64,000 nucleotides of DNA. Source: Ascidia mentula. Its lineage: Eukaryota > Chordata > Ascidiacea > Phlebobranchia > Ascidiidae. The position numbers and the translations under genes are program-made. The stretch is taken from the NCBI GenBank assembly GCA_947561715.1, contig OX387205.1, positions 1,307,001 to 1,371,000 of the forward strand, in the 5' to 3' direction. Numbering within the stretch: position 1 is the first letter of the stretch; each line of letters begins with the position of its first letter. Of this stretch, positions 1 through 39,900 are shown piece by piece. The notes below the pieces were generated by a model. The model was not told the DNA's origin, did no database searches, and saw nothing but the letters and a program-made list of their open reading frames with translations.

Positions 1-18
1 TTTTTCAAACCAAAAGCT

Positions 19-90
19 TGACCCCGACGTGATTTGAACACGCAACCTTCTGATCTGGAGTCAGACGCGCTACCGTTGCGCCACGGAGTC
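19..90 (-). tRNA. tRNA-Trp(CCA) copy 1
   Basis: Consensus cloverleaf with anticodon CCA. Pairs with copy 14 in the 1,935-bp higher-order repeat. Confidence 0.96.
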
Positions 91-167
91 ACACACTTCG
101 TTGGTTGCACTGGGTAGATTTATCGGCGATAATCGGCCGAATTAAGCGATTTTTCTTACAAAAAACT

Positions 168-239
168 TGACCCCGACGTGGTTTGAACACGCAACCTTCT
201 GATCTGGAGTCAGACGCGCTACCGTTGCGCCACGGAGTC
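168..239 (-). tRNA. tRNA-Trp(CCA) copy 2
   Basis: One change from consensus, T60 to C in the T loop, which should be harmless. A run of six T follows the 3' end. Confidence 0.95.
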
Positions 240-316
240 ACACACTTCATGGGTTGCACCGGGTAGATTTATCGGCGATAATCGGCCGAATTAAGCGATT
301 TTTCTTACAAAAAACT

Positions 317-388
317 TGACCCCGACGTGGTTTGAACACGCAACCTTCTGATCTGGAGTCAGACGCGCTACAGTTGCGCCACGGAGTC
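317..388 (-). tRNA. tRNA-Trp(CCA) copy 3, G18 lost
   Basis: T60C plus G18 to T in the D loop. G18 normally pairs with base 55 to hold the tRNA elbow, so this copy may be non-functional. Copy 16 carries the same change. Confidence 0.88.
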
Positions 389-465
389 ACACACTTCATG
401 GGTTGCACCGGGTAGATTTATCGGCGATAATCGACCGAATTAAGCGATTTTTCTTACAAAAAGCT

Positions 466-537
466 TGACCCCGACGTGTTTTGAACACGCAACCTTCTGA
501 TCTGGAGTCAGACGCGCTACCGTTGCGCCACGGAGTC
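466..537 (-). tRNA. tRNA-Trp(CCA) copy 4
   Basis: T60 to A in the T loop, otherwise consensus. Followed by the second spacer class. Copy 17 shares T60A. Confidence 0.93.
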
Positions 538-614
538 ACATACTTTAACGATTGCACTGGTTAGAATTGTCGACGATAATCGGTCGAATCAAGCGATTTT
601 TCAAACAAAAAGCT

Positions 615-686
615 TGACCCCGACGTGATTTGAACACGCAACCTTCTGATCTGGAGTCAGACGCGCTACCGTTGCGCCACGGAGTC
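615..686 (-). tRNA. tRNA-Trp(CCA) copy 5
   Basis: Consensus sequence with a five-T terminator. Confidence 0.96.
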
Positions 687-763
687 ACACACTTCGTTGG
701 TTGCACTGGGTAGATTTATCGGCGATAATCGGTCGAATTAAGCGATTTTTTAAACCAAAAGCT

Positions 764-835
764 TGACCCCGACGTGATTTGAACACGCAACCTTCTGATC
801 TGGAGTCAGACGCGCTACCGTTGCGCCACGGAGTC
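764..835 (-). tRNA. tRNA-Trp(CCA) copy 6
   Basis: Consensus sequence. Its higher-order counterpart, copy 19, has lost one base. Confidence 0.96.
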
Positions 836-911
836 ACACACTTCATGGGTGCACTGGGTAGATTTATCGGCGATAATCGGTCGAATTAAGCGATTTTTCA
901 AACCAAAAGCT

Positions 912-983
912 TGACCCCGACGTGATTTGAACACGCAACCTTCTGATCTGGAGTCAGACGCGCTACCGTTGCGCCACGGAGTC
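912..983 (-). tRNA. tRNA-Trp(CCA) copy 7
   Basis: Consensus sequence; spacer of the acacatttcattgg type. Confidence 0.96.
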
Positions 984-1060
984 ACACATTTCATTGGTTG
1001 CACTGGGTAGATTTATCGGCGATAATCGGCCGAATTAAGCGATTTTTCAAACCAAATGCT

Positions 1061-1132
1061 TGACCCCGACGTGATTTGAACACGCAACCTTCTGATCTGG
1101 AGTCAGACGCGCTACCGTTGCGCCACGGACTC
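1061..1132 (-). tRNA. tRNA-Trp(CCA) copy 8, weakened
   Basis: C3 to G breaks the 3-70 acceptor pair. The usual T-run after the 3' end is cut to three T (plus strand caaatgc), so termination may also be poor. Confidence 0.9.
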
Positions 1133-1209
1133 ACACACTTCATGGGTTGCACTGGGTAGATTTATCGGCGATAATCAGTCGAATTAAGCGATTTTTCAAA
1201 CAAAAAGCT

Positions 1210-1281
1210 TGACCCCGACGTGATTTGAACACGCAACCTTCTGATCTGGAGTCAGACGCGCTACCGTTGCGCCACGGAGTC
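1210..1281 (-). tRNA. tRNA-Trp(CCA) copy 9
   Basis: Consensus sequence with a five-T terminator. Confidence 0.96.
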
Positions 1282-1358
1282 ACGCATTTCATTGGTTGCA
1301 CTGGGTAGATTTATCGGCGATAATCGGCCGAATTAAGCGATTTTTCAAACCAAAAGCT

Positions 1359-1430
1359 TGACCCCGACGTGATTTGAACACGCAACCTTCTGATCTGGAG
1401 TCAGACGCGCTACCGTTGCGCCACGGAGTC
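1359..1430 (-). tRNA. tRNA-Trp(CCA) copy 10
   Basis: Consensus sequence with a four-T terminator. Confidence 0.96.
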
Positions 1431-1507
1431 ACACACTTCATGGGTTGCAACGGCTAGATTTATCGGCGATAATCGGCCGAATTAAGCGATTTTTTAAACA
1501 AAAAGCT

Positions 1508-1579
1508 TGACCCCGACGTGATTTGAACACGCAACCTTCTGATCTGGAGTCAGACGCGCTACCGTTGCGCCACGGAGTC
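1508..1579 (-). tRNA. tRNA-Trp(CCA) copy 11
   Basis: Consensus sequence with a five-T terminator. Confidence 0.96.
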
Positions 1580-1656
1580 ACACACTTCATGGGTTGCACT
1601 GGGTAGATTTATCGGCGATAATCAGTCGAATTAAGCGACTTTTCAAACAAAAAGCT

Positions 1657-1728
1657 TGACCCCGACGTGATTTGAACACGCAACCTTCTGATCTGGAGTC
1701 AGACGCCCTACCGTTGCGCCACGGAGTC
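1657..1728 (-). tRNA. tRNA-Trp(CCA) copy 12
   Basis: C23 to G gives a G-G mismatch in the D stem; otherwise consensus. Confidence 0.92.
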
Positions 1729-1805
1729 ACACACTTCATGGGTTGCACTGCGTAGATTTATCGGCGATAATCAGTCGAATTAAGCGATTTTTCAAACAAA
1801 AAGCT

Positions 1806-1877
1806 TGACCCCGACGTGATTTGAACACGCAACCTTCTGATCTGGAGTCAGACGCGCTACCGTTGCGCCACGGAATC
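1806..1877 (-). tRNA. tRNA-Trp(CCA) copy 13
   Basis: C3 to T turns the 3-70 pair into a T-G wobble; probably tolerated. Confidence 0.94.
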
Positions 1878-1953
1878 ACACACTTCATGGGTGCACTGGG
1901 TAGATTTATCGGCGATAATCGGTCGAATTAAGCGATTTTTCAAACCAAAAGCT

Positions 1954-2025
1954 TGACCCCGACGTGATTTGAACACGCAACCTTCTGATCTGGAGTCAGA
2001 CGCGCTACCGTTGCGCCACGGAGTC
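1954..2025 (-). tRNA. tRNA-Trp(CCA) copy 14
   Basis: Consensus sequence; starts the second block of the 1,935-bp higher-order repeat. Confidence 0.96.
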
Positions 2026-2102
2026 ACACACTTCGTTGGTTGCACTGGGTAGATTTATCGGCGATAATCGGCCGAATTAAGCGATTTTTCTTACAAAAAA
2101 CA

Positions 2103-2174
2103 TGACCCCGACGTGGTTTGAACACGCAACCTTCTGATCTGGTGTCAGACGCGCTACCGTTGCGCCACGGAGTC
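2103..2174 (-). tRNA. tRNA-Trp(CCA) copy 15, U33 lost
   Basis: T33, the universally conserved base before the anticodon, is A here (loop CACCAGA), along with T60C. The anticodon is still CCA, but the U-turn should fail, so this copy is probably not translation-competent. Confidence 0.85.
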
Positions 2175-2251
2175 ACACACTTCATGGGTTGCACCGGGTA
2201 GATTTATCGGCGATAATCGGCCGAATTAAGCGATTTTTCTTACAAAAAACT

Positions 2252-2323
2252 TGACCCCGACGTGGTTTGAACACGCAACCTTCTGATCTGGAGTCAGATG
2301 CGCTACAGTTGCGCCACGGAGTC
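2252..2323 (-). tRNA. tRNA-Trp(CCA) copy 16, G18 lost
   Basis: Carries G18T and T60C like copy 3, plus G26A. Likely weak or inactive. Confidence 0.85.
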
Positions 2324-2400
2324 ACACACTTCATGGGTTGCACCGGGTAGATTTATCGGCGATAATCGGCCGAATTAAGCGATTTTTCTTACAAAAAGCT

Positions 2401-2472
2401 TGACCCCGACGTGTTTTGAACACGCAACCTTCTGATCTGGAATCAGACGCGCTACCGTTGCGCCACGGAGTC
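2401..2472 (-). tRNA. tRNA-Trp(CCA) copy 17
   Basis: C32 to T in the anticodon loop (TTCCAGA) and T60A. Both are compatible with function. Confidence 0.92.
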
Positions 2473-2549
2473 ACATACTTTAACGATTGCACTGGTTAGA
2501 ATTGTCGACGATAATCGGTCGAATCAAGCGATTTTTCAAACAAAAAGCT

Positions 2550-2621
2550 TGACCCCGACGTGATTTGAACACGCAACCTTCTGATCTGGAGTCAGACGCG
2601 CTACCGTTGCGCCACGGAGTC
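2550..2621 (-). tRNA. tRNA-Trp(CCA) copy 18
   Basis: Consensus sequence. Confidence 0.96.
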
Positions 2622-2698
2622 ACACACTTCGTTGGTTGCACTGGGTAGATTTATCGGCGATAATCGGTCGAATTAAGCGATTTTTCAAACCAAAAGCT

Positions 2699-2769
2699 TG
2701 ACCCCGACGTGATTTGAACACGCAACCTTCTGATCTGGAGTCAGACGCGCTACCGTTGCCCACGGAGTC
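2699..2769 (-). pseudogene. tRNA-Trp copy 19, one-base deletion
   Basis: Only 71 bp: one base is missing where the D stem should read GCGC, which breaks the stem and the A box. Its counterpart, copy 6, is intact, so the loss followed the 1,935-bp duplication. Confidence 0.88.
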
Positions 2770-2845
2770 ACACACTTGATGGGTGCACTGGGTAGATTTA
2801 TCGGCGATAATCGGTCGAATTAAGCGATTTTTCAAACCAAAAGCT

Positions 2846-2917
2846 TGACCCCGACGTGATTTGAACACGCAACCTTCTGATCTGGAGTCAGACGCGCTAC
2901 CGTTGCGCCACGGAGTC
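2846..2917 (-). tRNA. tRNA-Trp(CCA) copy 20
   Basis: Consensus sequence. Confidence 0.96.
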
Positions 2918-2994
2918 ACACATTTCATTGGTTGCACTGGGTAGATTTATCGGCGATAATCGGCCGAATTAAGCGATTTTTCAAACCAAAAGCT

Positions 2995-3066
2995 TGACCC
3001 CGACGTGATTTGAACACGCAACCTTCTGATCTGGAGTCAGACGCGCTACCGTTGCGCCACGGAGTC
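2995..3066 (-). tRNA. tRNA-Trp(CCA) copy 21
   Basis: Consensus sequence; about the last unit that clearly matches the first higher-order block. Confidence 0.96.
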
Positions 3067-3143
3067 ACACACTTCATGGGTTGCACTGGGTAGATTTATC
3101 GGCGGTAATCGGCCGAATTAAGCGATTTTTCAAACAAAAAGCT

Positions 3144-3215
3144 TGACCCCGACGTGATTTGAACACGCAACCTTCTGATCTGGAGTCAGACGCGCTACCG
3201 TTGCGCCACGGAGTC
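3144..3215 (-). tRNA. tRNA-Trp(CCA) copy 22
   Basis: Consensus sequence. Confidence 0.96.
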
Positions 3216-3292
3216 ACACACTTCATGGGTTGCAACGGGTAGATTTATCGGCGATAATCGGTCGAATTAAGCGATTTTTCAAACCAAAAGCT

Positions 3293-3364
3293 TGACCCCG
3301 ACGTGATTTGAACACGCAACCTTCTGATCTGGAGTCAGACTCGCTACCGTTGCGCCCTGGAGTC
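3293..3364 (-). pseudogene. Degenerate tRNA-Trp copy 23
   Basis: Three changes at structural sites: G7A, T8G and C25A. T8 is conserved and belongs to the A-box region. Anticodon CCA remains, but folding and transcription are doubtful. Confidence 0.8.
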
Positions 3365-3441
3365 ACATACTTTAACGATTGCACTGGTTAGAATTGTCGA
3401 CGATAATCGGTCGAATTAAGCGATTTTTCAAACCAAAAGCT

Positions 3442-3513
3442 TGACCCCGACGTGATTTGAACACGCAACCTTCTGATCTGGAGTCAGACTCGCTACCGTT
3501 GCGCCCTGGAGTC
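3442..3513 (-). pseudogene. Degenerate tRNA-Trp copy 24
   Basis: The same three changes as copy 23 and the same spacer, so this is a recent single-unit duplication of an already defective gene. Confidence 0.8.
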
Positions 3514-3590
3514 ACATACTTTAACGATTGCACTGGTTAGAATTGTCGACGATAATCGGTCGAATTAAGCGATTTTTCAAACCAAAAGCT

Positions 3591-3662
3591 TGACCCCGAC
3601 GTGATTTGAACACGCAACCTTCTCATCTGGAGTCAGACGCGCTACCGTTGCGCCACGGAGTC
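3591..3662 (-). tRNA. tRNA-Trp(CCA) copy 25
   Basis: C40 to G gives a G-G mismatch in the anticodon stem. Confidence 0.91.
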
Positions 3663-3738
3663 ACACACTTCATGGGTGCACTGGGTAGATTTATCGGCGA
3701 TAATCGGTCGAATTAAGCGATTTTTCAAATCAAAAGCT

Positions 3739-3810
3739 TGACCCCGACGTGATTTGAACACGCAACCTTCTGATCTGGAGTCAGACGCGCTACCGTTGCG
3801 CCACGGAGTC
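3739..3810 (-). tRNA. tRNA-Trp(CCA) copy 26
   Basis: Consensus sequence; begins the 595-bp, four-unit higher-order pattern. Confidence 0.96.
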
Positions 3811-3887
3811 ACACACTTCGTTGGTTGCACTGGGTAGATTTATCGGCGATAATCGGTCGAATTAAGCGATTTTTCAAACCAAAAGCT

Positions 3888-3959
3888 TGACCCCGACGTG
3901 ATTTGAACACGCAACCTTCTGATCTGGAGTCAGACGCGCTACCGTTGCGCCACGGAGTC
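3888..3959 (-). tRNA. tRNA-Trp(CCA) copy 27
   Basis: Consensus sequence. It occupies the higher-order slot where copies 31 and 35 have anticodon CAA, so it may show the ancestral state. Confidence 0.96.
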
Positions 3960-4035
3960 ACACACTTCATGGGTGCACTGGGTAGATTTATCGGCGATAA
4001 TCGGTCGAATTAAGCGATTTTTCAAACCAAACGCT

Positions 4036-4107
4036 TGACCCCGACGTGATTTGAACACGCAACCTTCTGATCTGGAGTCAGACGCGCTACCGTTGCGCCA
4101 CGGAGTC
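4036..4107 (-). tRNA. tRNA-Trp(CCA) copy 28, terminator weakened
   Basis: Consensus tRNA, but the T-run after the 3' end is only three long (plus strand caaacgc), so Pol III may read through. Confidence 0.95.
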
Positions 4108-4184
4108 ACACATTTCATTGGTTGCACTGGGTAGATTTATCGGCGATAATCGGCCGAATTAAGCGATTTTTCAAACCAAAAGCT

Positions 4185-4256
4185 TGACCCCGACGTGATT
4201 TGAACACGCAACCTTCTGATCTGGAGTCAGACGCGCTACCGTTGCGCCACGAAGTC
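4185..4256 (-). tRNA. tRNA-Trp(CCA) copy 29
   Basis: C5 to T gives a T-G wobble in the acceptor stem, shared with copies 33, 37 and 40. Confidence 0.94.
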
Positions 4257-4333
4257 ACATACTTTAACGATTGCACTGGTTAGAATTGTCGGCGATAATC
4301 GGTCGAATTAAGCGATTTTTTAAACAAAAAGCT

Positions 4334-4405
4334 TGACCCCGACGTGATTTGAACACGCAACCTTCTGATCTGGAGTCAGACGCGCTACCGTTGCGCCACG
4401 GAGTC
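4334..4405 (-). tRNA. tRNA-Trp(CCA) copy 30
   Basis: Consensus sequence with a five-T terminator. Confidence 0.96.
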
Positions 4406-4482
4406 ACACACTTCGTTGGTTGCACTGGGTAGATTTATCGGCGATAATCGGTCGAATTAAGCGATTTTTCAAACCAAAAGCT

Positions 4483-4554
4483 TGACCCCGACGTGATTTG
4501 AACACGCAACCTTCTGATCTTGAGTCAGACGCGCTACCGTTGCGCCACGGAGTC
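4483..4554 (-). tRNA. tRNA with Trp body but anticodon CAA, copy 31
   Basis: C35 to A changes the anticodon loop from CTCCAGA to CTCAAGA, so the anticodon is CAA, which would read the leucine codon UUG. The rest of the cloverleaf, both promoter boxes and the T-run are intact. Confidence 0.93.
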
Positions 4555-4630
4555 ACACACTTCATGGGTGCACTGGGTAGATTTATCGGCGATAATCGGT
4601 CGAATTAAGCGATTTTTCAAACCAAAAGCT

Positions 4631-4702
4631 TGACCCCGACGTGATTTGAACACGCAACCTTCTGATCTGGAGTCAGACGCGCTACCGTTGCGCCACGGAG
4701 TC
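4631..4702 (-). tRNA. tRNA-Trp(CCA) copy 32
   Basis: Consensus sequence. Confidence 0.96.
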
Positions 4703-4779
4703 ACACATTTCATTGGTTGCACTGGGTAGATTTATCGGCGATAATCGGCCGAATTAAGCGATTTTTCAAACCAAAAGCT

Positions 4780-4851
4780 TGACCCCGACGTGATTTGAAC
4801 ACGCAACCTTCTGATCTGGAGTCAGACGCGCTACCGTTGCGCCACGAAGTC
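4780..4851 (-). tRNA. tRNA-Trp(CCA) copy 33
   Basis: C5T acceptor wobble; counterpart of copy 29 at +595 bp. Confidence 0.94.
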
Positions 4852-4928
4852 ACATACTTTAACGATTGCACTGGTTAGAATTGTCGGCGATAATCGGTCG
4901 AATTAAGCGATTTTTTAAACAAAAAGCT

Positions 4929-5000
4929 TGACCCCGACGTGATTTGAACACGCAACCTTCTGATCTGGAGTCAGACGCGCTACCGTTGCGCCACGGAGTC
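4929..5000 (-). tRNA. tRNA-Trp(CCA) copy 34
   Basis: Consensus sequence. Confidence 0.96.
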
Positions 5001-5077
5001 ACACACTTCGTTGGTTGCACTGGGTAGATTTATCGGCGATAATCGGTCGAATTAAGCGATTTTTCAAACCAAAAGCT

Positions 5078-5149
5078 TGACCCCGACGTGATTTGAACAC
5101 GCAACCTTCTGATCTTGAGTCAGACGCGCTACCGTTGCGCCACGGAGTC
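5078..5149 (-). tRNA. tRNA with Trp body but anticodon CAA, copy 35
   Basis: Second CAA copy, exactly 595 bp from copy 31, so the changed anticodon was amplified with its higher-order block. Otherwise consensus. Confidence 0.93.
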
Positions 5150-5225
5150 ACACACTTCATGGGTGCACTGGGTAGATTTATCGGCGATAATCGGTCGAAT
5201 TAAGCGATTTTTCAAACCAAAAGCT

Positions 5226-5297
5226 TGACCCCGACGTGATTTGAACACGCAACCTTCTGATCTGGAGTCAGACGCGCTACCGTTGCGCCACGGAGTC
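5226..5297 (-). tRNA. tRNA-Trp(CCA) copy 36
   Basis: Consensus sequence. Confidence 0.96.
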
Positions 5298-5374
5298 ACA
5301 CATTTCATTGGTTGCACTGGGTAGATTTATCGGCGATAATCGGCCGAATTAAGCGATTTTTCAAACCAAAAGCT

Positions 5375-5446
5375 TGACCCCGACGTGATTTGAACACGCA
5401 ACCTTCTGATCTGGAGTCAGACGCGCTACCGTTGCGCCACGAAGTC
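5375..5446 (-). tRNA. tRNA-Trp(CCA) copy 37
   Basis: C5T acceptor wobble; third member of the copy 29/33 series. Confidence 0.94.
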
Positions 5447-5523
5447 ACATACTTTAACGATTGCACTGGTAAGAATTGTCGACGATAATCGGTCGAATTA
5501 AGCGATTTTTCAAACCAAAAGCT

Positions 5524-5595
5524 TGACCCCGACGTGATTTGAACACGCAACCTTCTGATCTGGAGTCAGACTCGCTACCGTTGCGCCACGGAGTC
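5524..5595 (-). tRNA. tRNA-Trp(CCA) copy 38
   Basis: C25 to A breaks the first D-stem pair. Copies 23 and 24 share this change. Confidence 0.91.
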
Positions 5596-5671
5596 ACACA
5601 CTTCATGGGTGCACTGGGTAGATTTATCGGCGATAATCGGTCGAATTAAGCGATTTTTCAAACCAAAAGCT

Positions 5672-5743
5672 TGACCCCGACGTGATTTGAACACGCAACC
5701 TTCTGATCTGGAGTCAGACGCGCTACCGTTGCGCCACGGAGTC
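5672..5743 (-). tRNA. tRNA-Trp(CCA) copy 39
   Basis: Consensus sequence. Confidence 0.96.
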
Positions 5744-5819
5744 ACACACTTCATGGGTGCACTGGGTAGATTTATCGGCGATAATCGGTCGAATTAAGCG
5801 ATTTTTCAAACCAAAAGCT

Positions 5820-5891
5820 TGACCCCGACGTGATTTGAACACGCAACCTTCTGATCTGGAGTCAGTCGCGCTACCGTTGCGCCACGAAGTC
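5820..5891 (-). tRNA. tRNA-Trp(CCA) copy 40
   Basis: T27 to A opens the first anticodon-stem pair; also C5T. Confidence 0.91.
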
Positions 5892-5968
5892 ACATACTTT
5901 AACGATTGCACTGGTTAGAATTGTCGACGATAATCGGTCGAATTAAGCGATTTTTCAAACGAAAAGCT

Positions 5969-6040
5969 TGACCCCGACGTGATTTGAACACGCAACCTTC
6001 TGATCTGGAGTCAGACGCGCTACCGTTGCGCCACGGAGTC
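5969..6040 (-). tRNA. tRNA-Trp(CCA) copy 41
   Basis: Consensus sequence. Confidence 0.96.
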
Positions 6041-6117
6041 ACACACTTCATTGGTTGCACTGGGTAGATTTATCGGCGTTAATCGGTCGAATTAAGCGAT
6101 TTTTCAAACCAAAAGCT

Positions 6118-6189
6118 TGACCCCGACGTGATTTGAACACGCAACCTTCTGATCTGGAGTCAGACGCGCTACCGTTGCGCCACGGAGTC
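6118..6189 (-). tRNA. tRNA-Trp(CCA) copy 42
   Basis: Consensus sequence. Confidence 0.96.
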
Positions 6190-6266
6190 ACATACTTTAA
6201 CGATTGCACTGGTTAGAATTGTCGACGATAATCGGTCGAATTAAGCGATTTTTCAAACGAAAAGCT

Positions 6267-6338
6267 TGACCCCGTCGTGATTTGAACACGCAACCTTCTG
6301 ATCTGGAGTCAGACGCGCTACCGTTGCGCCACGGAGTC
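6267..6338 (-). tRNA. tRNA-Trp(CCA) copy 43, last full copy
   Basis: T65 to A opens the outer T-stem pair. This is the array's right-hand edge; the next spacer is already diverged. Confidence 0.92.
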
Positions 6339-6416
6339 ACACACTTCATTGGTTGCACTGGGTAGATTTATGAACGGTAAACGGTCGAATTAAGCGAATT
6401 TTCAAACAAAAAGTTT

Positions 6417-6428
6417 CGCCACGGAGTC
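6417..6428 (-). pseudogene. Terminal remnant of a tRNA-Trp unit
   Basis: Only the first 12 bases of a tRNA-Trp (plus strand cgccacggagtc) remain, followed by decayed spacer. It marks the old edge of the array, 100 bp before the receptor exon. Confidence 0.7.
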
Positions 6429-6528
6429 ACACAATAATTTATTGCTGTAATCAAATTTATCTGCGATATTCTGTCGAGTTGGTGAATTTTCGTGCAAAAA
6501 CTATATGAATGATGTGTTTTGTGTGCAG

Positions 6529-6962
6529 TTTACCCAACATGCCCTGGTAATGCTTTTACCTGCGGTAACGGCGTCTGCATCAACTTGAACTTTGTTTGTG
6601 ATGGAACGAACACATGTGGTGATTGGACAGACGAAGAACACTGCGGTAAGTTGTATTGAAGGTGTTTTGTTTGGTTAATAAAGTGTATTGATTGATTGAT
6701 TGATTGCCATACCATCGTTATGAAGATTTTTACAACACTTTTACATTTTTTTTTTTTTACAATATTTTTGCCTTGGTTCCAGCTTCCTCTGCCTTAACCA
6801 CTGTCTAAACTTATTGCGCAACTGCAGATCATGTGATTCCGTGTCTCAACAACCAATGGCGATGCGCGAACTCATCCAAGTGCATCGACATCAGCCAGAT
6901 ATGCGACGGGACGAGCGATTGTGAAAACGGAACTGACGAATCACGTGACGGCTCACAATGCA
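6529..6962 (+). CDS. LRP2: LRP2 exons 1-2 (window numbering): last two LA repeats of cluster I
   Basis: Exons 6529-6645 and 6828-6962. Exon 1 encodes [20 protein letters not shown] followed by [16 protein letters not shown], a complete six-cysteine LA repeat with its calcium site (D..DW.DE). Exon 2 encodes a second, [15 protein letters not shown]...[10 protein letters not shown] repeats bind ligands through acidic residues around the bound calcium. The acceptor before exon 1 (gtgtgcag) leaves TT to complete a codon, so a coding exon must precede it. LRP2 has seven LA repeats here and LRP1 two, so the upstream exons would settle the orthology. Confidence 0.9.
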
Positions 6963-9900
6963 GTGAGTTTCAAAAACGATTGTTTTTGTGCAACTTTGTA
7001 AAATTTTGAGTATAAACTTATGTCATCATCAGCCAGTCTCTTATACTCAGAATTATGAGAAAACCCGTGAGTTGTGTTCCTAAGTTTGTAAAATTTGGTT
7101 TGGTCGTATGGGCTTTTATGTAGTTACTCTTTTTCTTCGTTTACGAATTGTTTTCTTGTCTTGCAAATGGAATTACTACCCGTATCCATACGAGTTTATC
7201 GTGCTGTTTACTGTATTTGCTAAGGCAGTGGTTGACCAATATGTTTGGCGCTAACAATCTAACCTAAAATCATATACGGCCTGTTACTCAAACAATGCGA
7301 TCAAAACAAGGTTTCAAAATGGTAGTTTACTCATTTGTGCCATATTTTTTTAAAATAGGTGGTTCGTGGCAACCGTGCAGGACTTAGAAGTGGTTCATAT
7401 TGTTAACCACTGTGCTAAAAGGAATTGATTCAACCATTGAAGTTACTATAACCATTGTACAAGAGTAATAATAAATGTGAACAGGTTCCACTCTGTGCGG
7501 TGTCCTGAGTTGCGACTACAGATGCAGGGCGACACCTTGGGGCGGAACGTGCTTCTGTCCTGATGGTTTGCAAGTTGCCGACGATGAAGTTTCGTGTGAA
7601 GGTTCGGACTTAATATTTTTCCCGTAAATCAATGACTTTGTTGTATTTAAAGCGATTGTATTTAATTTTTAAAATCTGCAAAAATTTACCAAAAAACATA
7701 AAGCATTTTGAAACAAGATACTCGTAAAAGTCAACATAGTAAAAGAATGCCTCCAGTGAGAATCGAACTCACGACCCCTGGTTTACAAGACCAGTGCTCT
7801 AACCCCTGAGCTATAGAGGCGTCAGGCGCCACTGGGGATCGAACCCAGGATCTCCTGTTTACTAGACAGGCGCTTTACCACTAAGCCATGGCGCCGATGA
7901 GATCTGTTATGCAAAATAGTGGTATCCTTTCATTCATGTAATACCACCTATAATTAGCAACAAAAGAGACAGATGCGGACACACACGCTTGATATTATCT
8001 AATTGTATTTCTGTTGTAAATAAACCATAACTTGTAAAACATAATTTTTAACAATTGCATTATCTTAATGCAGTGTGCATTTTGTGAGGTCTGGGCCGGT
8101 GGTTTGCATCATCGGTATCATTTTAAAATAACCAACCAGCTCGTGCATCCCCCTTTCTTGTTACCGTTGCAACAATATTTTCAACTTCCACGGTGGATAC
8201 TGGATATTGATGTAACTAATAAGCACCAACCCAGACCCTGATAATAGATCTCGCCCGTATAGTTAAGATCCCCTAGCCTTGGCAGATGATAACCTTTAAC
8301 ATTACAAATTTCTATTTATGCAGACTTTAACGAGTGTGAAGTGTTTGGAATGTGTGAGCAGTTATGTGAGAATACGGAAGGTTCGTACAAGTGTAGTTGT
8401 GGGGATGGATATCTCTCCGAAGCACACGATGGCGAGTTGCATTGCAAAGCTCCACCTGAAGGTGAGTCGTTTATTTGTTATCGCCTACGGCGTTTATATC
8501 TACTGAAAATAATGCGTTTTATGTCTACTAAATAAGGCAGGTTGGTAACCCGTGGTAACAGAGCCGTATGCATCTCATTCAACCCTCTGTCCCAGTTTCA
8601 CAGAGGCCACAGGCTTACTTACGGAAACCAAATTAAACCCCAACTCAATATAGTTTTTGCGGCACCCCACGTATTTTGGTTTGTTGTAAACATAGTCCAA
8701 CTGTATCTTTCTGCACCAAAGGTTGTCGGCCTCTGCTTTTAGCGAATAATATGGTCGTGGTTTCGTATGTGTTTGCAGAATGGTAGTCTAATTTGGATCA
8801 GTTCGAACCAAGATCCCCTAGCAGGGATCGCGCACCGCATCACGACATATGTATTTCATTGTAAAGTCAACACAGCGATCTTGCAAAATTTTACACAGAA
8901 ATACATTTGGTCGTGGTTTCGTGTTCTAGTTTCAGCTTGAGTTTAAATAATGTTTTTTACCATAACGTTGCGCCTCAGCTGGTGACGTTCTCTTTTAAAC
9001 CAACCCTTATACTTATTCTGGTATAAGGCGAAACCTCATGTTTTAAACACAAAACACGTGGTATGTTATTTTCCACTAGTTTTGGGCTGCAATGAGCACA
9101 TGTCCAAATAACTTCCAATAATTCGCAATGCAAATTCACTGTGATTTTACTCCACCTAAATAACCCACAAAGCACTCCAGTGGAAAAGTGCTTTTATTTC
9201 TTTGAAATATCGCCTTCTTCTTGTCACTTAATTGTAACGTCGGACAATGCTTATCATTTCACAGGGGCACAAGTTGGCGTGTAGTGATATGGTCTCTATA
9301 GATTCTTGCGTGTTGCTGCATTATAGCGCGTTGCATGGAAACTACTGAATATATTTAAATAAACGATACTGGAAATGTCCTTAAGTAGGCGAAATATACA
9401 AATATATCTTTAGGTCAAACATTTGAATTTCGCATTGATAATGATTGTAGATACAATCGAAAGGTTTGCAAATGAACTTCACACCAGTTATATTAGCTGT
9501 ATTGTTTGTCCTAAATATTTACTAAGCTGTAAGTTATGTTCCTAAAAATATGTATCACAGTGTCGAGTTAGTTTTGTATTTTCCACCAAACATCGCAGCA
9601 AAGTGATTAGCTTGATTGATTTGCAATCAGTGAGCTTGTTGAAAACGAAGACCTTGTTGTCACATAATACTTCTTTACATAAAACAAATTAGATATATCA
9701 GTAACCAGGTCTTTGTCGGCCATAAACCAGGTCGGAGATTCCGATATCTCAAAATTTTCCTGTACATAAGTGACATGTTACATGCAAATGTTTGGCAGAA
9801 ATTAGAAACTTATCTAAATTCACCCTAACACTGTTGTTACTTCCTATATTCAGATGACGCCCCTCGCATTCTCTTCACATCTGGGAAGTACGTTTACTTC

Positions 9901-12900
9901 TACGATATGCAGAGCAGCCAAAGCCAAGGTCTTGAGGTCGCGGTAGAAGCTGTACAACCTCAGGGGGTCGATTACCATTATAAGCTGGGAAAGATAGTCT
10001 GGTCAGACACGAGCACGAACATGGTAAATTGGAATAATCGTTACAAACCGCTAGGTTTAATTTCATTTGTTTTTTGGTTTGTGCAATGTTTGAACTTGTG
10101 TTTGTGGAACAAAATGAACCAAAAAATAAATTTCAAACAACTTTCCTTATGATATAAAGTTTTAAAAACTTTACGTAACTTTATTGTAACTGACACTTAG
10201 TCTGCCAGACTTCCTCAGGGTTGTGGATAATGGAACCAACCACATAAATGTACAAGAAATGCCAGCAATAAAATGGCGCATAAGAAATCACAAAGATTGT
10301 CGAGTTATTAATTGATATGTATCCAAGCTTTTATGCTATTTCCATATTTTCAGATCATGTCATCGGATATTGACGGGTCAAACAAAAAAGTTGTATTAGA
10401 GAAAGCTGTGGAGTACCCTGAAAACCTTGCTGTCGATTGGATAGGTTAGTTGTGATGTACTGTTTGGGTGTCTGACATTAATAAAAAGTCTGGTAAATAC
10501 TTCCGCCCGCCATGATTGAGGAATGGCGTACGGGCGTATTTAGAAAAGATTATTGAACTCGCAAGTAGATTTGTAATGTAAGTTGTTAAATTGGGTTATC
10601 CGTCGTCGTTTATATCAGCTATTTTGTTTAATAAAAACTTTGACCCCGACGTGATTTGAACACGCAACCTTCTGATCTGGAGTCAGACGCGCTACCGTTG
10701 CGCCACGGAGTCGCACACTTCACCTGGCGGCCTTACCTTACCATAATGCTTATTGCTCATCTCTTATGCATTTCAGGTAATAACATTTACATTGTGGAGA
10801 CAACAGTGGGTCGTATCGAGGTTTGTAACATGGATGGAACGCACAGATACGGAGTTATTACAGACGGTCTAAAGCAACCACGCGGTCTCGCACTTGACCC
10901 GACCAAAGGGTTCGTATTACTTTCGTGTACATGTGAATTAGGGGCAGGTTTATGTCGTACAGTTACTGGTTAATATTTACGACCAATTCGAATACAATGA
11001 ACCCATGATGATAGCATTAAACCAATACCAACTATGAATGCATGTTAAGTCCCAATATCTTATTAGAAACTTAAAACAAAGTAGTCTTACAACCTAACCA
11101 GATTGAAAAACCCAAAACGTCGTGTATAGTGGGTATTGGCTTAATGCCCGGAAAGCCCCAAAGTTGGTGATGACGTGAACAAATTTCTTGCAATTTACGC
11201 TGTTGGTGTCTGTGATTTGACTCCAGATGTACAAAGTAACCTTTATGTAGATATACACGTAGTAATTACACAACCCATATCGTTATAAGTTATGTAATTA
11301 CAATAGACTCCAATTCATCTAGTCCAGGTTGCAAACCAATACCAAACCTCATTACTCTGCAATTCCTTCATCAGATACATGTTTTTCACCGACTGGAATC
11401 AAGATTTGCCACGGTTAGACCGAGCTTATATGGACGGGAGTGAAATTTACACACTGGTTGATAAAGTGATGGGATGGCCTTGTGGCGTCACGGTTGACTT
11501 GTTGCAAAGCAGGGTATATTGGGTGGACAAGAGGTTCGATTACATTGCCACTGTGGACTACTTCGGAAAGCATAGGTGAGTACTTTGCGTTGGGAAAAAA
11601 CGCACAGTTGTAATTGTGTCCTGATATTAACTGTCCATATTCCTGCCCGATCGTGTGCTATTGAAGTTGTTCCGGTATTTGTCTGACTAAAAATTTTGGT
11701 TGAGATTCGATAGAGAAAAACCCTCGTCTATTTGAGAATGATACGCAGGATTAAGTGCACTTTCAACAAGTAAATTTAACAAAAACTCGCAATGAAAGAG
11801 TAATCATGGAACTCTGTTTGTGACGTTTTTGCAACTACCACAGCTTCAATTGTATTTACTCTGTAAATATATGAACCGAAACTTGTTTGCTACAAACCAC
11901 CTGATGGATAATATTTACATATATTCCCATTTTCACCATGTACAGACGAACCATTCTATCAGGAAGCAATAACTTACCAAGCCCTAATGACATCACACTG
12001 TTCGAACACCACGTGTACGTCTCCGATGCGACTAAGATGGGTTTATTGCGTGCGCATAAGTTCGATGGATCGGAATATGAGCAAGTTACCCCTAAACTGG
12101 CAGCTACTCCATTCGCTACTAGGGCTTACCACCCTCTAAGACAGCCTCAAGGTATTTTGATGTGCAAGCATTTTATATAGTGATCATATATGGAAGTTAT
12201 GAAATTCAGATAGAGCATTTGTGGGACGATACGACATTCCCCACAAAATGAAGCTACACGCTGGGATTACCAGCGACAGACGCTCTGACTTTAGTTTAAA
12301 TAAATTTATATGTTCCCGAAAATTTGTTTTGATGGTAAAGAAAAAGTTCTGGCTGATTGTTTGTCCACAGAATATGTTTAACTATTAACCACCATGTACC
12401 ATTTGTAAACTTGATTTAAGGATGCAAGAGTGCGGTTTTTCTATGGAAGCAATTCGTTTGTTTAGATATGAATGAGGCTTTTAACATTCATTGATATTTG
12501 TAACTGCAGTTAGCAGACCCATGGACTTTCCTAACCCTCATATCTCGTCCCACACATAATGTATCCTTGTGATATAACCTTACTGACCAATTCCACAACG
12601 TTATTTTCTACAGTGGACAACCCGTGCGCTTTACAAAACGGAGGTTGTGATCATCTCTGTGTTCTCAGTCACACTACAGATAACGATGGTCTGGGTTATA
12701 CATGCGTATGTGACCCTGGATATGATCTCAACTACTTTACGAAGAAGTGCGAAGGTTGGTTTCTGCTTAATTTTTTTCCGTCCTGGTGTCTATTTTTCTA
12801 TGATATTACGTGATACGACATAACTTCCTTTTAATAAATTGTAAGTGTCAAAAAAGAAAACTGTTTCAGAACGAATAAATGTACTGACAAAAATCGTGTA

Positions 12901-15900
12901 CACGTTTATAATAAATTTCATATTTAAGACCAGTCGGCGTCGAGGAATCCACGCCCATTGTTGTTTACGACGAGATAATAATGTTTATAGTGGGCAGCAG
13001 ACAGGGCTACTGTTTCGATTTAACAGGTCTCGTCAGTGTAACTATGGTGCGACTTACAAAGGTGGCAAGATATGTGCACCTCACTGTTGTATTTTGAACA
13101 ACTTTCATAGGCGCCTGACTGGATAACCCTTATGATTTTATCAATGTCCATATCATTTTATTTTGCATATTTAATGTTTATAAGGTGTGTACACGCACTG
13201 CTTTGACCTGTAAGGTCTCATCAGTGCAGCTGTTGAATGGCACTGTGCTAGCTTTTACACTAGCAGGCACACTGGTCTCCACTTTGTGGTACCTTTCGGT
13301 CTAGCACAGTGCCACTCAACAGCTCCACTGATGAGAACTTACAGGTCGAAACAGTGCGTGTACACACCCTGTCTGCAGCTATGCAATAATATGGATTTTT
13401 TTGCACATATAATGTTTATAACTTCTTACAAAATTGAATTGAATTTCAGCTGTTGATCGTATCTTGCTCGCCAGTAGTTACCACTGGGTTCGTGGGTTTG
13501 CCACCGGCCAGTTTCAAACCAACGATGCCATCTTGCCGACTCTGTCCACTAGTAGCGCGTTCGTGTCTGTCACCTCTGATGCGATCAAGGGTTATGTTTA
13601 CTATGCGGACGCTAGTGTCGGTGTCATTTTAAGAAGATTCGCCAACGCTTCAGGTATGTTACGTTATTTTACTTGACACTGTTCAGTACCGCCGACTCAC
13701 AGTGTTGAAGATGTCTTTGAGTTCAGTGATCCGGGGTTGATCGAGTGTGCCCTCTCTGTTTTAAATGTGTTGCCATCCAAACTTTTTTGTCTAGCTAGCC
13801 TTTAAACTTACTGGGTGTCGGTCTGTATCTAAACAGAAAATATATATGCACGGAAATAGAATTGTTCAAAGCAGAAACCAGTGCCCTTAACGCACGAATA
13901 ACGACATTAGAACAACAATTTGTCGTTACAGCGAAAATAAAATGAGTGCGTGTGATTTTTACGACCAATATCTAAATTCGTGACGTCAATAAATATTCGG
14001 ATTCGGTCAAATATTGACTGTAGGTATTCGGATTCGGTTAAATATTGACTGTAGGTATTCGGATTCGGTTACATATTGACTGTAGGTATTCGGATTCGGT
14101 CAAATATTGACTGTAGGTATTCGGATTCGGTTAAATATTGACTGTAGGAATTCAGATTCGGCCAAATATTGACTGTAGGTACTCGGATTCGGTATAATAT
14201 TGGCTGTAGGTATTCGGATTCGGTCAAATTTTGACTGTGGGTATTCGGATTCGACCGAAACTGTTGACACGGCCCTAAAACTGACCAGTATGTGACCTTA
14301 AACTTGCAGGTGATCCAGAGGACATAGTGAACAACAAGCTAAACGTGATTCGCGCAACTGCAATGGATTGGTCAACCGGCAACTTGTACGTCATCGACGG
14401 AAGCAAACGTTCTATCATTGTCGTCAACGTAGAAGACCCCAAAACATTGCGGACCACTCTGAATATATCGGGTCTCCAAACCCCAACCAGCATCGCTGTA
14501 CATCCAACCAACGGGTACATATATATTATACTGTATGTTTAAGCATTCGTACGGAGCCACTGATACGTGGTGATCAATATGATGGCTGAGATCGCCCAGA
14601 AAAGAACTTTCCGTTTATTAGTGCATGCAATTTTTTGACCAACATAAAAATGAATTTTGACTCAAGTAACTTATCAGTAAGTAGGATATGTAAAAAAAAC
14701 GTAAGCTGTTAATCAGTCTGTCTGTCCCAATCACAACAGTAACTGCGTTTTTTTATTGTTTATCTACAAATATAAGTTTAAAATCATGTTGCCCGAGACA
14801 GAAAAAGTGTTTGTACATGATTATAAAAACTTGTTTTGACAAATACCTGTGTAGAATGACCACTATTTAACTTGTATTGACAAGTACCTGTGTAGAATGA
14901 CCACTACTTATCATGTTTTGAATATAAACGCCGCCATATTTATGTTGTCATCGTCTAAACATACACAAGTGTTAAAGGCTGAACTTTTCTGCAGACTGAT
15001 CGTGTGGTCGGATATTTCAAGACCAGCGAAGATTGTAAAGGCGAACATGGACGGATCGTCACCAGTAGTTCTGGTGAACACAACGATCCAAACTCCCATC
15101 GCTCTTACTATCGACATACAGTCAGTATTTCCTATTCATAAGAAGTCACTTCTAGCAATAATATTTTCATTATTGGTGCTGCATAGCAACCGAAACATTG
15201 GTGTTCATAAATGTTATTGTTAGAGGAGCCTTTTTATATTGAGAATTCTCCGGTTTGAATTCGCAATAAAATGTGCGCTTTGACCAATTCATAAAAAGTG
15301 TCACAATGTAAAGCATAATTCCTTAAATAGAGCTAAATTTGGCCCTGGATTAGGCTTTGTTTAACACCATGACAGTAATTTATTAAGATAGGTAATTATT
15401 TAGATGCCCTGTTAAAGATTTAATTAAAAAAAAGTTTTTATCCAGACTTGTACACAATATTGAGCAATTAAGGATTGTAATTGTTTTGCAAATACACACT
15501 TAATTCATAGACGACGATACGTTTTCTGGATCGATATCGGTCGTAAGGTGATTGAGACGATATCGTTGTACGGTTGGGGTCGCAAGCAGCTCCAGATCGA
15601 TCAACCACTTGTTTCTCCATCTTCCATCACATACCTTGACAATTACATGTGAGTTGGGTGGAGCACGTATGTGCAACATTTACATTTCTTGCAGTGGACA
15701 ATCTTAATGTTAATATGTACACTCATTTGCTAATCTTGGCTACAATGCCTGGGCTGCGAAGCCTGTAATCCTAATGATCTCGATACGACGGCTGTGATCT
15801 CCAAGTAAGAACCTGCGCAGTGGGGCAATCCTGCCAATCATGCTATTGCATGTAATATTACTGCGCTGACTGATTTGCTAATACAAACTATTTTATTGAT

Positions 15901-36900: not shown

Positions 36901-39900
36901 CACATCACAAACATATTTTATTAAACATAGCTCAGTAAACTTTGTGAAAATTTATACCAGTGTTGCGTTGTACATGGGAAGGGTTAACTGTATACTTTCT
37001 GGTTCAGAGCGATACCACATCATAATCACACATGTTGTATATTAACAGAGAGGACAGGATAGATGCAACAGTGACAGATACACTTGTCCCACAGGAACGT
37101 GTATAAGCCAGTCTTCTGTCTGTAATGGATATGCGAACTGTGTTGGCGGCGTCGACGAATCTGACAGAGTCTGTGGTAAGTTTGTTTGTGAGAAAGTAGG
37201 GAATATGATAATACAGTTTGCGTAGGAAAAGGCATTACATGTAACCTTCACACTAAACAGTTTTGCAATTGTTGGTTATTCACATGTCCCACATAACATA
37301 TACAGGTACATGCTAAAGGTGAACTTATGAAAATCGTATTTTGCTTCGTCATTTCGGTTTAAAATGAAAGCCTCCAGTGAGAATCGAACTCACGACCCCT
37401 GGTTTACAAGACCAGTGCTCTAACCCCTGAGCTATAGAGGCGTCAGGCGCCACTGGGGATCGAACCCAGGATCTCCTGTTTACTAGACAGGCGCTTTACC
37501 ACTAAGCCATGGCGCCGCGGTGATTATGAGACGTCATAAACACTACTGTTTATTCGTTACCTTACTGGTCCGCGAAGTTGTGATATTTAATGAACTTTTT
37601 CCTGTACAATTGTTGGTTTCCGCATGCCCGTATAACACATGACCTTCCACATAGTGCTATATTTCATGACCTTTCTTCACGCTTCCAGCTGATCACGTGT
37701 GTCCACCATCACGTCATCGTTGTCCAAATGGGAGGTGCATCTACATACGATATCTATGTGATAAGAAGGACGACTGTGGGGACGGTTCGGACGAACTTGG
37801 TTGCGGTAAGCAGGGTTTGTGTGGTTTTAAATGTCTGTGGGTTATTTTTTGTACTAAAACAGCCTAAGCCTGGTTCTGAGATTGTGAAATTAGATAAGGG
37901 ATCACTATTCGCAGCACTTGTATTTGTTTTACATGCGTATGCATGCTTTCGGTTGGTTTCAAAACACCTTTGTCAACAACTTCTGCAATAAATTCTAAAT
38001 CCCAAGACCTTTGTCAAAATATGTGGTTTTTACTTCAGCAAAACCATTACCTGTTGGACTTCCTTCTGAGAAAGCTGTTATAACTGCCCATGCAATTTAC
38101 CTGCTTTGTATATCTGTACTACAAGCGTAATAGTCTATTCGTATAGGAGTTTATATCAAAACTTTTCACATCACTTTAATTGGAACTTGATATTGACCTT
38201 GCAGATCCACCCACATGTGGTCCGGGTGAGTTCACATGTTTGTACGGAAGATGTCTCCCCCAGAGTCAAGTTTGTAACGGATATGACAACTGCAGGGACG
38301 GCATTGTTTCTGACGAGAAAGATTGTACCGATACAACCTGTCGACCCGACTACGTAAGCACACAGATTCTTGTAATATGACTTTGTGAATTTACCAAGGT
38401 CATTGTACATTACGTCGGGGTTAGTGACCCGTTTACTAGTTCAAATTACTCGACTATCTGAGAATACAATATAGATATTTTATTGCAACAGTTAATTGTG
38501 TTGAAACGACTAAAAACTGTAACGAGGGGCTTACTTTATAAAATAGTACAACTAAATATTGTACCAAACCTTGTTGAAGTCTTGCTGTACGACAGACTAA
38601 ACGTCGGAAGAATAAAGCACGTTAATTTTATGCCAGAAAATCAGTCTATTTTAAACTGTAATATGCCTGACAGCAATAGTAATATGACTAAATATTGTAC
38701 TTTGTGTGACAGTGAATCTGTGTCCACCACCTCCAGTTTGAAAGGCCCTGATACACTTGTGATGCTAATTAACGTTATCCAGTGTTTTACGATAAGGGAA
38801 GAGTTGACACTTTAATATTCTTCCCAGTTCCAATGCACTGCGACCAAAGTTTGTGTCTACAAACGATATTTGTGTGACGGTGATAGAGATTGTTATGATG
38901 GAAGCGACGAGTCACCTTCATTGTGCGGTAAATAATATTCTGTATAAAGCAGTAGGGACAATATTGTTTAAGTAGACTGCAGACAGGGCCACTGTTTTAG
39001 CCTATACACAGCTTAGCAACTTGTGGCGATCTTGTCAGCTTTTGCTGGGTCAAAACAATGGCCTTCTCTGCAGCTATGTTAAACAATTACGTGATTGTAG
39101 ATTTAGAAGCTTAATTTGGTTAAAATGCAACGATACTTTTTTCATAACCTCGCTCGCCTATTTGAATGAGAGCTGTGATAATACATAACTAAATTATTAA
39201 ACGTGCCGTATCAATCTGTATATGTGTACAAGCTAAATTCTCTTGATTGGCACTCTTTTGTAAAAGACTGACTTTTGCATTGTAAACAGTACACAAGCTT
39301 TCGCGATTTTCCCTCGCTTCGTCAGGTGTAAATAAACACAATGCGATACAAAAACAAGCGCAAGGCGGTCGAAGAAAAAAGGCACTGTAAACGATAAGCT
39401 GCCGTTAGTTGGCGTCGTCGTAACTACTAAACGTAGTAAAACTATGAAATTCCACATCTTCTTTATGTTTTCCGATACAGAGGATAGAGTTTGCGACGAA
39501 GATGAGTTTCAATGTGAGAGTGGGGCTTGCATTCCGAACTATTGGTATTGCGATGGTCGTTACGATTGTCTGAGCGGAAATGACGAACCGGATTTATCTT
39601 GTACACACCCGGATGTCACTTGTCCTCCAGGAGCATTCAAGTGTGACAACGGACGTTGCATCAACTCCGATTGGGTGAGGGAAAATGTGTTGTTGCAACT
39701 TAGTTTCGAATCCAGTCTAGTTACGATGGCACTCAACTTGTTGTTGGAGATTTCAAGCATAATATTCAGTCAATTCAAAAGCTGTGAACAAATATTCTGG
39801 ACATATCGTTGTAAACATTAACGTGTTTTATTTCATTCTTAAACACTTATGCCATCGTCTGTGTAATAAAACTGTGCCAGTATATTTCGACATTTTGCTG

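Follow-up and report, generated by a model that had tools for sequence, protein, structure and literature searches.

A tandem array of tRNA-Trp genes lies antisense in an intron of a megalin-type (LRP2) receptor gene of the ascidian Ascidia mentula

Tandem arrays of transfer RNA (tRNA) genes have been described in protists and animals. In Entamoeba, the arrays fall into 25 types, whose units comprise 1 to 5 tRNA genes each (PMC2652664). Hydractinia has tandem tRNA arrays, which its report calls unusual outside Entamoeba while noting that Nematostella also has tRNA arrays (PMC11067881), and a survey of eukaryotes lists, for Nematostella and teleosts, clusters that contain at least fifty tRNA genes (PMC2888827). 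Here we analyze a stretch of 64,000 nucleotides from Ascidia mentula (GCA_947561715.1, contig OX387205.1, positions 1,307,001 to 1,371,000; "the window" denotes this whole stretch). Its left end is filled by a head-to-tail array of tRNA-Trp genes, which the exon structure places within an intron of a megalin-type (LRP2) gene, antisense to that gene. The array belongs to a known kind, the tandem tRNA arrays, and is distinct by its host, an intron of a large receptor gene.

As in Hydractinia and Nematostella, an animal nuclear genome here carries near-identical tRNA units by the tens to hundreds, for many isotypes and with spacers that are conserved too; unlike in Hydractinia, the Trp array of A. 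mentula has a 75-bp spacer and is intronic and antisense (PMC11067881). The likeness to Entamoeba lies in isotypes occupying distinct tandem arrays, in units of 1 to 5 genes and in the concerted evolution proposed for them, whereas Entamoeba is a protist with more than 10% of its genome in arrays, and E. histolytica has short tandem repeats between the genes (PMC2652664). The Ser-Tyr-Tyr and Pro clusters of Arabidopsis also arose by tandem tRNA duplication and include variants and pseudogene copies, but they are silenced in most tissues and touch heterochromatin (PMC12308677), whereas the A. mentula array lies in a protein-coding gene. The human tRNA tandem repeat at 1q23.3 is likewise found in an animal, but is built of 7.3-kb units that bind CTCF and in which tRNA genes make up less than 6% (PMC4041453), as opposed to the 149-bp, single-isotype unit found here. 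Among the papers listed by our literature searches, none showed a tandem tRNA array situated within an intron, which argues only weakly that no such case has been described.

Within the window, ARAGORN called 43 tRNA genes at positions 18–6339, all on the minus strand, with the anticodon CCA in 41 and CAA in two. All 43 exceeded the gathering score of Rfam, and Tandem Repeats Finder (TRF) reported a single array at 1–6413 (period 149, 43.1 copies, 94% matches, score 11209), a score and copy number that exclude chance as its source. The features of this block are as follows:

1..6413, minus strand: tandem array of 43 tRNA-Trp genes, unit 149 bp, made of a tRNA of about 73 bp and a 75-bp spacer (ARAGORN, TRF, Rfam)
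4482..4555, minus strand: copy with a CAA anticodon (CCA to CAA), otherwise identical to the consensus (ARAGORN, stem check)
5077..5150, minus strand: second copy with a CAA anticodon, 595 bp (4 units) from the first (ARAGORN)
6414..6500, minus strand: remnant of one decayed unit, closing the array on the right, with 71% identity across 90 aligned columns (alignment to the unit)

A first-pass annotation of this DNA had claimed at least 43 stacked tRNA-Trp genes, the number that both ARAGORN and Rfam return; it had let the array run over 1..6528, and of this extent the array proper covers the part up to about position 6413, position 6528 being the end of the intron. Inside the 149-bp unit, TRF reported no short tandem repeats. 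The two CAA copies lie four units apart and are therefore probably the product of one segmental duplication. ARAGORN labels them as Leu, a naming artefact, as their body is that of tRNA-Trp with one anticodon change. An origin of the array from a short interspersed element or another retrotransposon was rejected, since each unit, judged from the sequence alone, is a full tRNA with a terminator and a short spacer.

The array continues to the left, as the first-pass annotation had also proposed. We searched a copy of the genome comprising 195.8 Mb in 79 contigs, in which the window corresponds to C73:1307001-1371000. The next 10 kb to the left (L014) contain 22 more complete tRNA-Trp genes, so that tRNA and spacer are both repeated head to tail, with a period of 149, across the 43 copies in the window and the 22 outside it. 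The left edge is a truncated, diverged unit, and the array starts at L014:3352. A run of N separates the 22 left copies from those in the window. From the last left copy to the first window copy there are 3,424 bases, or 23.0 unit steps, which fits about 22 units. If the run of N keeps its true length and is array throughout, the total is likely about 87 copies. The genome copy also reads N at sites that the window sequence shows in full; because of this, and because of its whole-unit length, the run of N need not be an assembly gap. The tRNA-Trp core occurs in 29 exact copies in the window; our searches for tRNA-Trp copies listed members of the array and three dispersed fragments but missed many exact array copies as well as an isolated copy at 10641, most likely owing to the N stretches of the genome copy, and they give no total for the genome.

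Long arrays are error-prone in assembly, and with a run of N inside this one, it may be asked whether copies were collapsed, multiplied or joined to the wrong flank, an artefact that the first-pass annotation had named as grounds for refuting its reading. We consider this very improbable. The 33 distinct spacers found among 63 and the decay at both array edges argue against collapse, and the run of N both fits a whole number of units and belongs to a genome copy that has N where the window is full. Moreover, the two flanks belong to one type of gene and jointly supply the seven LDL-A repeats and the following module of megalin, as the exon structure of the host gene reveals:

1..6528, plus strand: right part of the host intron, the whole of which is C73:1299958-1313528 (exon structure)
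6529..6645, plus strand: phase-1 exon for LDL-A repeat 6 of the first cluster, bounded by AG and GTAAGT (exon structure, megalin alignment)
6828..6962, plus strand: phase-1 exon for LDL-A repeat 7 of the first cluster (exon structure, megalin alignment)
7485..7600, plus strand: exon for an EGF-like module that follows the first LDL-A cluster, with an approximate donor position (megalin alignment)

Five LDL-A exons lie to the left of the array, and two LDL-A exons and one EGF-like exon to its right, all on the plus strand. All seven introns among these eight exons interrupt the frame in phase 1 and run from a GT donor to an AG acceptor. In the host intron the donor reads GTGCGT, which strays further from the usual form than the donors of its neighbors. 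This intron, situated between LDL-A repeats 5 and 6, measures 13,571 bp, compared with 178, 298, 380, 331, 182 and 522 bp for the other six, and about 96% of it is array (L014:3352 to window position 6413) if the run of N is array. Compared with solved structures, the 318-residue translation of the exons matches LRP2 best (8jut_A, with E 2.3e-231 when the many repeats of the full chain are summed). The top-scoring segment of this match, of 242.6 bits, pairs query residues 2–310 with megalin residues 28–337 with short gaps and is unbroken at the array junction. In this alignment a first cluster of seven LDL-A repeats is followed by an EGF module, the arrangement of LRP2. Pfam detected LDL-A in the translation (E 4.6e-55, with six stretches passing singly) and called no EGF domain in it, so the EGF label depends on the megalin alignment. 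Further into the window, from about 11 to 55 kb, LDL-A and YWTD motifs recur, as judged by pattern matching.

These exons bear out what had been claimed of the nesting from the window alone. The exon at 6529 indeed opens with two bases that complete a split codon. The intronic position deduced from it agrees with the five left and two right LDL-A exons, which share strand and phase and align with megalin 28–337 through the junction. Exons with LDL-A repeats, proposed as a check upstream, are present to the left of the array, so by exon structure the first coding exon would not lie to its right. The antisense orientation likewise stands, with the array on the minus strand and the receptor exons on the plus strand. 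By this exon structure, transcription of LRP2 would run through the array, which would be spliced out with the intron.

Are the copies maintained as tRNA genes? Among the 65 copies read, 39 equal the consensus body and 55 are free of stem mispairs and indels; 53 of these 55, and thus 53 of the 65, form a cloverleaf with the CCA anticodon of eukaryotic nuclear tRNA-Trp. A T-run of at least four within 3 bases of the tRNA end, as in a terminator of RNA polymerase III (Pol III), is found in 61 of 63 readable spacers. Over 63 aligned units, mean per-site diversity is 0.016 in the body (74 columns) and 0.092 in the spacer, which is about six times more diverse. The difference is sharpest among widely shared variants: none of 23 distinct body variants occurs in at least five units, compared with 22 of 39 spacer variants (Fisher P 1.6e-6). 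Because spacer variants travel in linked sets, we also collapsed linked variants, leaving 0 of 20 in the body and 12 of 28 in the spacer in at least five units (P 5e-4). New mutations strike both body and spacer; that the widely shared ones are confined to the spacer is as expected if units with a damaged tRNA get removed. Most copies thus look maintained as tRNA genes.

We therefore favor, as the probable explanation, a working (or until recently working) nuclear dosage array for tRNA-Trp that has been maintained and has grown inside the LRP2 intron. Each unit would be a complete Pol III gene, in which a tRNA body, presumably with promoter boxes inside it, is followed immediately by a T-run terminator and then by a short spacer. 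The copies would multiply and stay alike through unequal crossing-over and gene conversion, and selection would remove units with a damaged tRNA. Growth would have proceeded antisense in the intron, perhaps since a tRNA-Trp gene sat there by chance.

Several observations weigh against this explanation. As many as 26 of the 65 copies deviate from the consensus in the tRNA body. Mispairs or indels affect 10 copies and an anticodon change two, so some copies are decaying. Single-unit variants are about equal in number, with 13 in the body and 12 in the spacer (P 0.06 for the split between single and repeated variants), and the newest changes accordingly show little or no selection. This parity would also suit a satellite that is inert or silenced, has tRNA-Trp sequence simply as its content, and owes its low body variation to recent spread only. 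Satellites typically show the tandem structure with local segmental duplications and decaying edges seen here, where units are identical in 5 of 38 pairs four units apart (window part) and in 5 of 9 pairs 12 apart (left part), and in Arabidopsis seedlings the Ser-Tyr-Tyr and Pro clusters are silenced by the regions around them (PMC12308677). Spread alone, however, would leave body and spacer about equally uniform, contrary to the roughly sixfold difference in diversity and the restriction of variants in five or more units to the spacer; we thus regard an inert satellite as unlikely. Silencing of the array limited to certain tissues is possible.

If this is a dosage array, it is one of several. 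The earlier reading of the locus as a lone oddity of tRNA-Trp did not hold, as other isotypes of the genome are also found in tandem arrays. Probes for Thr, His, initiator-Met, Gly and Phe each matched, among the matches listed, a tandem tRNA array on another contig (5 of 5), to which Lys, Glu and Trp itself are added. An Rfam search, in which 63 of 19,702 first-look candidates were scored, led to an array of alternating Lys(TTT) and Glu(CTC) genes, comprising 549 tRNA genes in 83 kb (C70:14198647-14281939; L016-L024). Its 251 aligned units repeat the pattern of the Trp array, with diversity of 0.024 and 0.027 in the two bodies vs 0.061 and 0.065 in the spacers. This array ends in one tRNA-Asp call, and six Glu(TTC) calls within it may be Lys bodies with a changed anticodon.

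The remaining arrays were read over shorter distances. A Thr array has a 1,042-bp unit with Thr-AGT, a gene read as Val or Ile, Thr-CGT and Asn (3.5 kb read), and a Thr array on a further contig has a 1,341-bp unit with Thr-TGT, Pro, Lys-CTT and Ala (4 kb read). The His and initiator-Met probes led to one array of His and Met genes, of 275 bp (1.1 kb read). The Gly and Phe probes likewise led to one array, with a unit of about 1,088 bp that carries Phe, Ile, Gly and Glu (2.6 kb read); its Gly gene was called in one of the two units read. With several isotypes arrayed, array formation appears to be a habit of this genome, in which isolated tRNA copies coexist with the arrays (in the window, the one at 10641 and pairs of tRNA-Thr genes).

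The surroundings of the Lys/Glu array differ from those of the Trp array. In its flanks (about 10 kb on the left and 13 kb on the right; the right end of L024, L025 and L026) we recognized no host gene among translations inspected by eye, with no family search made; arrays in this genome thus do not seem to need a host gene. By the same inspection, NACHT/LRR-like and transposon-like reading frames adjoin it. One of them, at L025:1299-3008 on the minus strand, is an open frame of 569 amino acids that resembles a NACHT-type NLR and stands next to LRR-like frames.

Further tRNA genes are inserted between exons of the receptor gene in the window:

7748..7895, minus strand: pair of tRNA-Thr(TGT) and tRNA-Thr(AGT), antisense, to the right of the EGF-like exon (ARAGORN, Rfam)
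10641..10712, minus strand: isolated tRNA-Trp gene between exons of the LRP2 gene, with the same tRNA body as the array and mostly different flanks (ARAGORN, Rfam)

The tRNA-Thr pair occurs four times (7748–7895, 34807–34955, 36390–36537 and 37369–37516), each time antisense between exons of the same receptor gene, with 96–100% likeness. As the isolated tRNA-Trp gene and these pairs sit between other exons of LRP2, the array may perhaps have originated from a local gene.

The receptor gene is on the plus strand, and all 53 ARAGORN calls in the window, 52 of them confirmed by Rfam, are on the minus strand; as few as about four independent events may account for them, so no orientation bias can be claimed. 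A pre-mRNA that carries a sense tRNA could be a substrate for RNase P and RNase Z, a hazard that would favor antisense copies; a section heading of one study states that mitochondrial-derived intronic tRNAs are not processed as tRNAs in human cells (PMC7722341).

The orientation raises the question of whether the array acts on LRP2, either as an insulator or roadblock formed by TFIIIC and Pol III or through antisense cloverleaves in the pre-mRNA that influence splicing of the very long intron. The antisense strand of the unit does fold into a cloverleaf-like structure (-21.4 kcal/mol), but this fold is ordinary compared with shuffled sequences (z -1.54; 14 of 200 shuffles fold as well). Published findings cut both ways. 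In human reporters, intronic tRNAs of mitochondrial derivation increased splicing to a degree that depended on copy number, some also as the reverse complement, whereas exon inclusion did not rise with a mitochondrial tRNA-Gln in antisense, and the tRNAs tested were mitochondrial-derived (PMC7722341); the human tRNA tandem repeat has been proposed as a boundary element (PMC4041453). Considering also that the Lys/Glu array is flanked by no host gene that we recognized by eye, we find such an action on LRP2 improbable. More specifically, about 87 antisense cloverleaves per LRP2 pre-mRNA could help to splice out the 13.6-kb intron or could base-pair with precursors of tRNA-Trp, thereby tying receptor output to Pol III, the antisense orientation being selected since the sense one exposes the pre-mRNA to RNase P and RNase Z; to this elaboration we assign only a slim chance.

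Three tRNA-Trp 3'-half fragments are dispersed elsewhere in the genome (near position 5000 of L030, L031 and L032). Two of them are followed by CCA, a tail that is normally added after transcription, and two share part of their 3' sequence. By these features the halves look like reverse-transcribed copies of mature tRNA, or like an element that uses them. Within the window, TRF also reported a 31-bp tandem repeat at 13994–14253 (8.4 copies, 90% matches), and a tRNA-Thr(GGT) called by ARAGORN at 57325–57399 gained no support from Rfam and is probably false.

Overall, as several other tRNA types of this genome are kept in similar arrays, the Trp array looks like an ordinary tRNA supply in an unusual place. 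With it, one more animal genome is seen to hold several tRNA isotypes in long tandem arrays, and a tRNA array is shown to fit into a large receptor gene whose coding exons are intact on either side. The locus thereby offers two natural tests: how RNA polymerase II shares its template with a dense Pol III array that faces it, and whether selection works on individual tRNA copies or on the whole array.

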